Assembly: GCA_017553545.1 (NCBI GenBank)
Contig: JAFZKT010000063.1
Span: 1-57,650, forward strand
Length of the DNA: 57,650 nucleotides
Direction of reading: 5' to 3'
DNA from: Bacteroidales bacterium
GTDB lineage: Bacteria > Bacteroidota > Bacteroidia > Bacteroidales > UBA932
Positions 1,665 through 55,078 of this stretch are shown here, piece after piece. The first letter of the stretch is position 1, and each line of letters begins with the position of its first letter. The position numbers were made by a program, and so were the translations under genes. The notes beneath the pieces are model-generated. The model was not told the origin of the DNA. It did no database searches and saw only the letters and a list, made by a program, of their open reading frames with translations.

Positions 1665-3293
1665 TTACAGTCCTATTTTTTTGAAGAAGTCATTTCCTTT
1701 GTCGTCCACCAGGATGAAGGCAGGGAAATCCTCCACGCGGATCTTCCAGATGGCTTCCATACCCAGTTCCGGGTACTCCACGCATTCAATGCTCTTGATG
1801 CTGCTCTGCGAGAGAACGGCAGCCACGCCGCCGATGGTTCCCAGGTAGAACCCGCCGTGCTTGCGGCAGGCGTCCGTCACCTGCTGCGTGCGGTTGCCCT
1901 TCGCGATCATCACCAGCGAAGCGCCGTGGTCCTGGAACTCGTCCACATACGGATCCATGCGGTTGGCCGTGGTGGGGCCCATGCTGCCGCAAGGGTATCC
2001 TTCCGGCGTCTTGGCGGGGCCGGCGTACAGGATGGGATGGTCCTTGAAGTACTGCGGCATCCCCTCGCCCGCATCCAGGCGGGCTTTCAGCTTGGCGTGG
2101 GCGATGTCGCGGGCCACGATGATCGTGCCCTTCAGGTTCACGCGGGTGCCCACCTCATATTTGGTGAGTTCGGCCCGCACGAAGTCGATGCCCTTGTCCA
2201 GGTCGATTTCGATGCCCTTTGCGCCCTCGCCGGGCTTGCGGTATTCCTCCGGAATGAGTTCGGAAGGATTCACGTCCAGTTTCTCAATCCAGACGCCATC
2301 GGCGTTGATTTTACTCTTGACGTTGCGGTCGGCCGAGCAGCTCACGCCCATGCCGATGGGGCAGCTGGCGCCGTGCCGGGGCAGACGGACCACGCGGATG
2401 TCGTGGGCCAGGTATTTGCCGCCGAACTGCGCGCCAAGGCCGATTTTCTGCGCCTCTTTCAGGAGCTTCTGCTCCAGGTCCACGTCGCGGAAGGCGCGGC
2501 CGGTTTCATCGCCCGTGGTGGGCAGGCCGTCGTAGTATTTGATGCTCGCGAGCTTCACGGTCAGGAGGTTCTTTTCGGCCGATGTCCCCCCGATCACGAA
2601 CGCGATGTGGTAAGGCGGGCAGGCCGCGGTACCCAGCGTGCGCATCTTCTCCACCAGGAACGGAAGCAGGGTGCCCTCGTTCTGGATGGTGGCCTTGGTC
2701 ATGGGGTAGAAGTACGTCTTGTTGGCGCTGCCGCCGCCCTTCGCCACCATGATAAAGCGGTATTCGCCGCCCTGGGTGGCCTCGATGTCTATCTGGGCCG
2801 GCAGGTTGCAGCGGGTGTTCACCTCATCGTACATATTGAGCGGGGCGTTCTGGCTGTAGCGCAGGTTCTCCTGCGTGTAGGTTTCGTACACGCCCTTGGA
2901 GAGGGCTTCCTCATCTTCGAAGCCCGTCCACACCTGCTGGCCCTTTTCGCCGTGGATGATGGCCGTACCGGTATCCTGGCAGAACGGAAGCACGCCCTTC
3001 ACGGCCGTCTCCGCATTGCGCAGGAACTGCAGGGCCACGTATTTGTCATTCTCACTGGCTTCCGGATCTTTCAGAATCGCCGCTACCTGCTCATTATGGG
3101 CGCGGCGCAGCATAAACTGACAGTCGTGAAAACTCTGCCGGGCCACCAGTGTGAGCGCCTCCGGGCTCACTTTGAGCATCTTGTGACCTTCGAACTCTGC
3201 GGTGGACACGAGCTTTTCGGATCCGGGAATCTTGTAATACTCAGTGGTGTCTTTGCCCAACTGAAACATGGGCGCGTATTTAAAATCTGGCAT
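1665..3293 (-). CDS. fumB: Fumarate hydratase, class I (iron-sulfur type)
   Basis: Reversibly hydrates fumarate to (S)-malate using a [4Fe-4S] cluster. At 542 residues it has the one-chain class I (FumA/FumB) length, with the alpha part first (FCQDTGTA, containing a likely cluster cysteine) and the beta part last ([15 protein letters not shown], and [17 protein letters not shown]). The frame stays open to 3518, but that extension runs through the preceding FSM gene in another frame. I place the start at 3293, where [13 protein letters not shown] begins and where only 19 bp separate it from that gene. It is followed within 3 bp by aspA. Like other class I enzymes it should be oxygen sensitive, fitting an anaerobe. 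The letter A or B cannot be decided from sequence. Confidence 0.93.
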
Positions 3294-3312
3294 TGTTATG
3301 ATGTGTTTTACA

Positions 3313-4074
3313 TTATTCTGAAACAGGACGGATGGAGAAACCGAAGCAGCGGTTGTAGCCATATAAGCCAAGCTCGTCGGAAGCGATGTAAACGTAACGC
3401 GCATCCACCGGTCCACTCGTAGAAAGGGTAGAAGACCAGTAGCCGCCGCTGGTACCTTCATTGGAGTGGTTGGTCCATTCCCATTTACCGGCGGCGGGAA
3501 GGAAAATGCTGTTGCCATTTTCGGCCGTAACCAATACTCCGTTTACGCCGCTGCGAGTCGTCCAGGTCCACGTGCATTTGGTCCTTAATTCCGTCCATTC
3601 CGCGATGGTGGGGATACGCCATTTACCGACAAGTTTTTCATTTGCCCGTGCGGCATCATGGACGTAGTCATAATCCTTGAACTCCGTCATATTGTCCACA
3701 GTACCGTAAAGAGCGTTGTAATTGTACTTGTTCATTTTTACAGACTGTCCGTCACACAGGGAGTATGAAGTCCAGGTATATCCGCCGGTCTTGCCGCTTT
3801 TCCAGGTCAGGGGATCCAGGCTGGAGTAATGGGGCGCAACCTCGCCCCAGGCATAATAGTCACCATAATCTTCCGGATTGGCACACAGACCGTCTTCGCA
3901 GAGATTGGATGTTGCCCAGTACAGTTTGTAGGTTGTCCCATCCTCCCTGGTCATCACAATCCCCAGGTCCACGGCGCCTTCAGGCACTTTATCATCATCT
4001 TTAACGGGATTCCCACCCGGCTTGCAGGCCAATAGCAGCAAAAACGCCATTATGGCAACAATTCCTTTCTTCAT
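3313..4074 (-). CDS. FSM-domain lipoprotein A (hypervariable C-terminus)
   Basis: Exported lipoprotein of 253 residues: signal peptide with lipobox LLAC and lipidated Cys17, then one 'Fibrobacter succinogenes major paralogous' domain. Family blocks are visible in order: [23 protein letters not shown] (70-78), [33 protein letters not shown] and the terminal FSIRPVSE. Such domains have a C-type-lectin/formylglycine-enzyme-like fold; ligand unknown. The stretch between LPAAG and FSIRPV differs sharply from the other paralogues (see findings). It has its own -7 box at 4122-4129 and leads the transcription unit into fumarase and aspA, 19 bp downstream. Its promoter-proximal DNA is duplicated upstream of paralogue B. 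Confidence 0.85.
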
Positions 4075-4110
4075 AATATCATCATTGTCCCTCCAAAGTT
4101 AACCAATCCG
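4034..4110. repeat. 77-bp duplicated 5' region (copy 1)
   Basis: This tract covers the signal-peptide codons, leader and part of the upstream region of FSM gene A. It is identical to 4918-4994 in front of paralogue B, and similarity continues with few mismatches for about 16 bp. It shows recent duplication or gene conversion of the expression and export module. Confidence 0.9.
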
Positions 4111-4121
4111 TACGACCTTCG

Positions 4122-54208: not shown

Positions 54209-54214
54209 ATCCTG

Positions 54215-54222
54215 CAAAGATA
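54215..54222 (-). promoter_or_regulatory. -7 promoter element of the six-gene dnaX-lptB unit
   Basis: Minus strand TATCTTTG, ending 6 bp before the ATG at 54208. Transcription would begin at or next to the start codon, implying a leaderless message. Confidence 0.65.
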
Positions 54223-54226
54223 GGGA

Positions 54227-55078
54227 TTATTTATTTTTACTCAAAGAGTAACATTTCCCGCGGAGGTACCAGGAGAGATCCCCGATTTCCATCGGAGCCA
54301 TTTCCGCCGGAAGGATGGGCTGTCCGATACGCACCTCTACCGTGCGGCCACGCTTGTTGAACATTTCGTGGACAAGCCGGACCGTGCGCAGACGCGGGTG
54401 GATGAGGCCCAGGAGATGGAAAGTACGGGAATTGGTCCCGTCGAACCAGATGGGGATCACCGGAAGGCCGGTGCGTTTGATAAGTTTGACGATGTTTGGC
54501 GCCCAGGGCTTATCCTGAATGGTCCATCGGCCACCTTCTTTGCGGTTCTTCTTCTTTTGCCAGGTGGCCACTTCCCCGGCAGGGAAGAAGCCGATGGCGC
54601 CGCCGCCCGCAATATGGTTCAGGGCCATGCGGATGCCGTTGATGCTACGGGCATCGGCCTTGCCGCCCGAAAGATTGTCCACCGGCAGGAAACCGTCCCT
54701 GAGGCCCGGGATGAGGGCCAGGAGGAAGGTGGTGAGAAGTTTATAGTCCGGCCGTCTGGCGCCCACGGCGGCGTTCAGGATGAGGCCGTCGATGCTGCCA
54801 TAGTGATGGTTGGACACGGTGATGAAACCGCCCTCCGCCGGAATCCGCGCCAGGTCCTCTTCCGGAATGTGGTATTTCACACCCACTTCCTTCAGGATGG
54901 TCTCCGCGAATTCGGGGCCTTTCTGGTCCGGATAGCGGGACTGGATATCGTTCACCTTGTCGATATCCAGGATTTTCAGAACCAGCTTCGCCACCCGGAG
55001 GCCGAATTTTCCCTTGAGGTGAAGAGCCTTCTGCATCTCGCTGGCGGGCAGGACCTCCAGCTTCTTTTCTTCTTCCAT
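54227..55078 (-). CDS. PlsC-like acyltransferase (hemolysin/OlsA type)
   Basis: Enzyme of 283 residues of the glycerolipid acyltransferase fold. The HX4D motif is NHHYGSIDG, with a second block FFPAGEVATW (FPEG-like, with Ala in place of Glu) and a third GLPVIPIWFDGTNSRTF. This fits the group annotated as putative hemolysin or lyso-ornithine-lipid acyltransferase better than plain PlsC. No membrane helix is evident. The start is placed at 55078 because the -7 box at 55100-55107 overlaps the upstream ATG at 55102. Confidence 0.87.
   Translation of the reverse strand: MEEEKKLEVLPASEMQKALHLKGKFGLRVAKLVLKILDIDKVNDIQSRYPDQKGPEFAETILKEVGVKYHIPEEDLARIPAEGGFITVSNHHYGSIDGLILNAAVGARRPDYKLLTTFLLALIPGLRDGFLPVDNLSGGKADARSINGIRMALNHIAGGGAIGFFPAGEVATWQKKKNRKEGGRWTIQDKPWAPNIVKLIKRTGLPVIPIWFDGTNSRTFHLLGLIHPRLRTVRLVHEMFNKRGRTVEVRIGQPILPAEMAPMEIGDLSWYLRGKCYSLSKNK

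Follow-up and report, generated by a model that had tools for sequence, protein, structure and literature searches.

A highly iterated octamer in genomes of a Bacteroidales genus, possibly an uptake-type self-recognition sequence

Iterated self-tags are best known from the Neisseriaceae and Pasteurellaceae. In published surveys, as far as their accessible parts go, the uptake signal sequences (USS) of Pasteurellaceae and the DNA uptake sequences (DUS) of Neisseriaceae occur at about one copy per kb, show no orientation bias and are common within a genus or family, and the Pasteurellaceae USS carry flanking motifs (PMC1626085, PMC3630211). Here we describe an octamer, CATCGGCC (GGCCGATG on the other strand), that recurs throughout a 57,650-nucleotide stretch of Bacteroidales DNA, bases 1-57650 of contig C63, hereafter the window. 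The assembly to which the window belongs (G000; other G labels denote the relatives compared with it) comprises 89 contigs and 1.76 Mb, with 80.5% completeness and 4.5% contamination. Like USS and DUS as described in those surveys, the word is short and asymmetric, occurs about once per kb in both orientations equally, has many genic copies and is found in related species, and its flank preferences recall those of USS (PMC1626085, PMC3630211). It differs from them in occurring in Bacteroidota, in its random spacing, in showing no raw preference for noncoding DNA and in that PF00437 passed the cut-off in 0/30 motif-rich genomes.

Other iterated octamers offer partial parallels. With the highly iterated palindrome HIP1 of cyanobacteria the word shares the over-representation of a single octamer and a density that is high in some lineages and not in relatives; unlike HIP1, it is not its own reverse complement, and the methylase families PF00145 and PF01555 are not consistently present. 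Architecture imparting sequences (AIMS) and FtsK-orienting polar sequences (KOPS) are polar octamers, whereas the word shows no polarity among stretches. All are scattered over the chromosome (for AIMS, PMC5993296, in the part available). Like Chi, the word is an asymmetric octamer, dense on the chromosome, scarce in an atypical island and accompanied by an AddB-type protein; unlike Chi, it lacks polarity, and it is several times denser than the one copy per 5 kb given for E. coli in the accessible part of a Chi survey (PMC8022716). That survey required polarity and, on lifting this criterion, obtained unpolarised candidates in 11 species.

Within the same phylum, transformation of Riemerella requires ComEC, DprA and a helix-hairpin-helix (HHH) protein with a predicted periplasmic location, and pilus homologues were not detected there, according to the available part of that report (PMC8459023). 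R. columbina prefers its own DNA, and the candidate words named in the accessible part of that study are A/T-rich frequent words only (PMC7965970). Riemerella work aside, our literature search, which covered few subscription journals, found neither strand of the word and, among the papers listed, no Bacteroidales uptake or iterated word.

Excess over chance and codon demand

An exact count gave 28 copies of CATCGGCC and 25 of GGCCGATG in the window, 53 in all, every one inside a called gene (genes were called with our own simple codon model). A preliminary description of this DNA had reported 49 copies; its 28 of the first form and all 14 of its example coordinates were right, whereas its 21 of the second should have been 25, and its span closed at 54659, with the copy at 57141 among those missed. 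Relative to the coding strand, 29 copies are sense and 24 antisense; the near balance reported earlier (25 against 24) thus holds, and there is no strand bias. Base composition predicts 2.93 copies, matching the earlier figure of about 3, but is a weak null: a third-order Markov model predicts 8.6, and synonymous-codon shuffles of the window's genes gave 6.9±2.3 copies and at most 13 in 300 shuffles. Across the assembly, the word occurs 714+713 = 1,427 times, or 0.81 per kb (one per ~1.2 kb), compared with 56+60 = 116 times for the reversed word as a control, and no other 8-mer is as frequent in 717 kb sampled from the genome, masked N runs aside.

The excess of the word beyond chance and codon demand is real. 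In 223 kb of G000 (177 genes) there were 207 copies, against 29.4±4.9 when synonymous codons were shuffled genome-wide, 33.9±5.4 when they were shuffled within genes, 38.6±6.8 with one adjacent base kept on each side and 85.6±7.3 with two (100 shuffles each). The larger 717-kb sample contains 565 copies against a codon-aware expectation of 84. A codon or codon-pair habit of the lineage would accord with the concentration of most copies of the 223 kb in three reading frames and with the rise in expectation under the strictest shuffle, but the observed count lies above all 100 of those shuffles (maximum 106). The excess also extends to noncoding DNA and to rare codons. In the 223 kb, frame xCA-TCG-GCC holds 50 copies where 0.5 are expected and frame GGC-CGA-TGx holds 11 where 0.2 are expected, and 140 copies in the former frame in the 717-kb sample use the minority codons GCA, ACA, TCA and CCA. 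Codon, codon-pair and context bias were refuted by the four types of shuffle, and we consider such a habit barely conceivable. The earlier view of a highly iterated DNA-level motif, occupying several reading frames and poorly explained by simple codon bias, is borne out: the excess is spread across frames, and the codon-aware null proposed at the time does not refute it.

Expressed relative to codon-aware expectation, one-base variants at positions 2-7 sum to 1.21, 1.13, 0.97, 1.21, 1.58 and 0.60, and at the two ends of the word (positions 1 and 8) the sums are 2.38 and 2.14. Single variants spread more widely (CATCGTCC, 67 against 32.2; CTTCGGCC, 143 against 85; CATCGGTC, 11 against 29). By hand sums, singly mismatched forms total 1,730 against ~1,178 expected, with the surplus mostly at positions 1 and 8. 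The neighbour GGCCGACG (= CGTCGGCC), for which an equal excess had been named in advance as grounds for rejecting the motif, was seen 123 times against 103.6 expected and so has no equal excess. The core is ATCGGC, preceded by C, less often by A or T and not by G, and preferably followed by C. The core tends toward ATCGGCC in G019, where A or T may also precede it, and in G097 its last C is looser. Flank preferences, tested against frame-matched shuffles and numbered from the first C of CATCGGCC as 0, are mild: 1.34-fold for G at -5, 1.37 for T at -3, 1.51 for T at -2 and 1.48 for A at +10. This test was redone with shuffled controls because partly fixed codons confounded an uncontrolled comparison. 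A Markov-only comparison of one-base variants misled, since copies of the word raise the background against which it is judged, and gave way to codon-aware ratios; an expectation-maximisation motif search was dropped after it converged on codon periodicity.

Noncoding or uncalled DNA (GC 42% in G000 and 46% in G019) contains 15 copies against 2.2 expected in G000 and 23 against 2.6 in G019; the reversed control occurs there once and not at all, respectively. Short gaps of 20-600 bp hold 6 copies in 32 kb (G000) and 9 in 29 kb (G019), and the reversed control is absent from both sets. A raw intergenic count of 5 in 28 kb had seemingly pointed to a coding-only effect, which we rejected when a composition-matched null gave noncoding DNA a fold excess similar to that of coding DNA. 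Copies are uniform across genes (dispersion over all genes 1.12 in G000 and 1.02 in G019). The fifth of genes with the lowest GC content at third codon positions has a lower excess (4.7 in G000 and 4.2 in G019, against 6.6-7.9 elsewhere). Codon-adaptation classes differ little in G000 (6.0-7.4), and the lowest class in G019 gives 3.8 against 6.4-8.4; few copies fall in the first tenth of genes in G000 (29/566), a deficit hardly seen in G019 (34/408). In stretches with six or more copies, orientation was no more heterogeneous than expected (chi-square 37.6 on 33, p 0.27; 20.6 on 26, p 0.76), in a test that covered stretches up to 20 kb and the window, with the replication origin not located; by our estimate, a polarity of 75:25 would yield a chi-square well over 100 on 33.

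Among pairs of copies at most 40 bp apart, 22/32 are convergent; a hand count found that 12 of these 22 overlap in a shared GGCC, leaving 10/20. One intergenic convergent pair (L142:4450-4472) forms a perfect 12-bp hairpin leading into a short T run, 26 bp past the gene end, a single case of terminator-like use of the word.

Copies are locally scarce in two settings. An atypical island of ~105 kb in G019 (C28, ~50-155 kb) is nearly free of them, with 2-5 per 20 kb against 14.7 and 0-2 per 5 kb, and has lower GC (0.44-0.56). Ten proteins of the island were scanned, among them one DDE transposase, a GDP-mannose dehydratase and an AAA-ATPase/PDDEXK protein. The recA genes of 26 motif-rich genomes hold one copy between them, far below average density, and 23 recA loci with their flanks, again from motif-rich genomes, hold 38 where 0.7/kb would give 59. 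As density over genes is uniform in G000 and G019, we read the recA shortage as local.

Distribution and conservation within the genus

The comparison set of 250 genus genomes was taken from a larger group and included G000 itself. By hand tally, 46/250 hold at least 500 copies, and densities reach ~859 per Mb. Codon-aware ratios, genome-scaled on the assumption of 90% coding, were computed for the 21 genomes with sequence at hand. They are 6.7 in G000, 6.7 in G019, 4.7 in G028, 4.2 in G005, 2.6 in G003, 5.7 in G097 and 6.6 in G132, as against 0.7-2.1 in 13 motif-poor members of the genus. The outgroup G053 reaches 2.4-fold from an expectation of just 0.7 in 27 kb, and this genome was excluded as a motif-rich case. 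No rival word of comparable strength emerged in the 13 motif-poor relatives, for which samples were small (8-56 kb coding each).

A RecA tree of 58 sequences, based on this single gene and with several weak nodes, placed 29 of the 46 motif-rich genomes and not the other 17. One clade unites 26 of them; G003 and the motif-poor G034 lie just outside it, and a one-codon RecA insertion (before VIPSGS, alignment column 49) is common to the 26-genome clade, G003 and G034. The motif-poor G009 has a one-residue RecA insertion beside that position. G132 is paired with the motif-poor G035 (support 1.00) and G097 is placed elsewhere (0.69), indicating that two lineages separate from the main clade also carry the word densely. 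The same core tops the codon-aware 6- and 7-mer lists of both; among 8-mers, the word ranks first in G097 (22 copies against 2.9) and second in G132 (14 against 2.6), after the overlapping GCATCGGC.

Individual sites are also conserved between carriers. In 99 orthologue pairs of G000 and G019, 98 sites align, 29 of them identical. Of the 38 with full amino-acid agreement, 23 are kept in G019, four times the 5.7 expected from conservation of the same codons elsewhere. By the same measure, G000 sites are kept in G028 (6/11 against 2.2), G003 (4/8 against 1.5) and G005 (2/7 against 1.1), and the motif-poor G034 and G036 keep 1/8 against 1.5 and 0/3 against 0.5. With G019 as reference, the figures are 9/13 against 2.3 in G028, 1/1 against 0.4 in G003 and 1/2 against 0.5 in G034. 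Conservation beyond the protein, which the preliminary description had put forward as a check, is therefore present in G019 and G028 and absent in the motif-poor G034. Eight variants were run as controls against G019: CATCGACC, CATCCGCC, CGTCGGCC, CATCGGCA and CATCGGCG lie near expectation, CTTCGGCC (7/14 against 4.5) and CACCGGCC (6/8 against 2.6) exceed it, and TATCGGCC, which is among the forms that the core may take, does so clearly (6/7 against 1.1). Because kept sites exceed codon conservation, the sites must be maintained, and the 69/98 sites not common to G019 indicate turnover.

Candidate readers and competing explanations

Gene searches covered 30 motif-rich and 30 motif-poor genomes, with PF00145 and ComEC searched in one set and the other families in a slightly different motif-rich set. 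C5 methylases (PF00145) were found in 8/30 motif-rich and 11/30 motif-poor genomes; the 22/30 motif-rich genomes in which this family was not found include G164 (97% complete) and G081 (94% complete). N4/N6 methylases (PF01555) passed the cut-off in 7/30 and 11/30, respectively. Given this patchiness, neither family is required; PF02086, PF02384 and type IIG enzymes were not searched. ComEC is present in 27/30 motif-rich and 29/30 motif-poor genomes. All 30 genomes of either kind have HHH_3 matches, the best of which is mostly a ~700-aa protein that we take to be Tex-like. A shorter HHH_3 protein of ~250-410 aa, often near recA, occurs in at least 27/30 of each; the G000 protein combines an N-terminal hydrophobic segment with two HHH_3 stretches. 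AddB-like proteins (PDDEXK_1) were found in 29/30 motif-rich and 30/30 motif-poor genomes, that is, in 59/60. In several motif-rich genomes of the main clade, including G000 (C81), ~20 kb separates the AddA-like from the AddB-like gene; in many genomes besides these, G132, G100, G098 and G208 among them, the distance is a few kb at most. AddB as the reader, considered for its shorter nuclease-domain span and its separation from AddA, was rejected on finding that AddB identity follows RecA in six genomes.

Because the word has several traits of USS and DUS, Riemerella transforms without detected pilus homologues and G000 encodes both ComEC and an HHH protein, we tentatively favour the view that the word marks self DNA, most likely as an uptake-type sequence of a pilus-independent competence system; that such a tag acts in uptake is our inference. 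A trans-acting protein would read the tag in double-stranded DNA, and selection or biased recombination would keep it at ~0.8 per kb. This reader may be part of a pilus-independent competence apparatus consisting of ComEC, a membrane-anchored HHH protein and an outer-membrane receptor, as proposed for Riemerella. The tag would bias uptake toward kin DNA and spread through transformation, and in lineages with few copies the general machinery would remain, the specificity having disappeared or never arisen. Since PF00437 passed the cut-off in no motif-rich genome searched, a receptor built on a pilus, as in Neisseria or Haemophilus, is unlikely.

Several observations weigh against an uptake function. 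The pilus/type II ATPase family PF00437 passed the cut-off in none of the 30 motif-rich genomes and in 5/30 motif-poor ones, which leaves the former without the kind of receptor known for USS and DUS. ComEC, HHH_3 and AddB-like proteins are equally common in motif-poor genomes, so the tag shows no association with the competence genes searched; no reader was found, and no family searched discriminates in the right direction. Unlike USS and DUS, the word has a raw density in noncoding DNA below the genic level, and its spacing is random, not more even (coefficient of variation 1.03 and 1.11; variance/mean of copies in bins 1.22 and 1.02). Any old chromosomal motif would be scarce in an island such as that of G019. 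For the self-preference of Riemerella, its authors also offer restriction-modification, in the part of the report available (PMC7965970).

Two rival explanations are serious. The word might be a Chi-like signal that modulates the AddAB helicase-nuclease in break repair and is kept at its density by selection. Such a role would suit an asymmetric, over-represented octamer that is scarce in the atypical island and even over genes, in genomes nearly all of which have an AddB-like protein, but the absence of polarity among stretches makes it improbable. The AddB proteins of six genomes also speak against it: they diverge with RecA and leave the motif-rich lineages ungrouped, with that of G097 nearest to that of the motif-poor G016. 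The other rival, somewhat unlikely in our judgement, is a binding site for a nucleoid-associated, chromosome-organising or repair protein, apart from uptake or recombination. Maintenance of the sites at the DNA level, mild flank preferences resembling a protein footprint, and indifference to orientation and spacing are all consistent with it; against it, no candidate was found, and no nucleoid protein is known to us for which an octamer is enriched sevenfold and present in >1,000 copies.

The remaining explanations fare worse. An iterated word tied to methylation in the manner of HIP1 is suggested by parallels with HIP as set out in the accessible part of PMC4390886: a single octamer stands out in abundance, some genomes carry extended forms, and the word comes and goes between branches. 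Against this, the word is not palindromic, and of the two methylase families searched, PF00145 was found in 8/30 motif-rich genomes and PF01555 passed the cut-off in 7/30; we consider this reading very unlikely. Of the candidates named in the preliminary description, an uptake sequence fits best, and the HIP1-like and methylase proposals are unsupported. A mutational or mismatch-repair bias of the very-short-patch type, turning a near relative into the word, would account for the depletion of CATCGGTC; deficits of the 24 one-base neighbours, however, total ~80 against a gain of ~480 (hand sums). This balance of gains and losses largely refutes a repair bias, the sites are conserved beyond codons as well, and we give the idea next to no credence.

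It is possible, then, that the word is the first uptake-type self-recognition sequence of Bacteroidota, read by a competence apparatus that works without type IV pili, with one specificity kept, lost or regained across the genus. A strong tag in the phylum of Riemerella, transformable and lacking pilus homologues, would provide a handle on the protein that reads kin DNA and on how uncultured Bacteroidales keep gene exchange within lineages. With motif density graded over 250 genomes and motif-rich lineages lying outside the main clade, the reader gene should be findable by association.

Window copies and other repeats

The copies in the window are listed in Table 1. The gene at 42976-45567, encoding an M6-family metalloprotease domain protein (TIGR03296, E 2.8e-48), is without any copy.

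Table 1. Copies of the octamer in the window (strand +, CATCGGCC on the + strand; strand -, GGCCGATG on the + strand)
Position	Strand	Remark
2577..2584	-	GGCCGATG on +; in gene 1665-3293 (- strand)
6269..6276	-	
7773..7780	-	
7888..7895	+	CATCGGCC on +
8834..8841	+	
9059..9066	+	convergent pair with 9096
9096..9103	-	convergent pair with 9059
11220..11227	-	
11775..11782	+	
11982..11989	-	
15115..15122	-	
16360..16367	-	
18803..18810	-	
18840..18847	-	
19849..19856	+	
21214..21221	+	
23390..23397	-	
24388..24395	+	
24574..24581	+	
24789..24796	+	
27220..27227	+	
28262..28269	+	
29398..29405	-	
29459..29466	+	
29690..29697	-	
30498..30505	+	
30693..30700	+	
31486..31493	+	
31598..31605	+	
31769..31776	+	
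32454..32461	-	
33283..33290	-	
33336..33343	-	
33828..33835	+	
35610..35617	+	
36674..36681	+	
36773..36780	-	
37241..37248	-	
37492..37499	+	
38071..38078	-	
38695..38702	-	
41388..41395	-	
41571..41578	-	
42805..42812	-	
47079..47086	-	
47225..47232	+	
47789..47796	+	
48957..48964	+	
49252..49259	+	
52494..52501	+	
54525..54532	+	
54652..54659	+	
57141..57148	-	beyond the span described earlier

A dispersed repeat of 28-50 bp lies in the window at 14089-14139, just upstream of a tRNA-Leu gene (14170-14252), and has many copies in G028, G005 and G019. GATC is scarce in the coding DNA of the motif-rich G000, G019, G028, G005, G097 and G132, at 0.26-0.52 of codon-aware expectation; it is less reduced in G003 (0.80) and G034 (0.72), not reduced in the motif-poor G036 and G016, and also low in the motif-poor G009 (0.47). 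The 9-mer TCTTAAGCA, a separate repeat or signal, occurs 17 times against 0.4 expected in the 223 kb of G000 and 11 times against 0.1 in 60 kb of G028.

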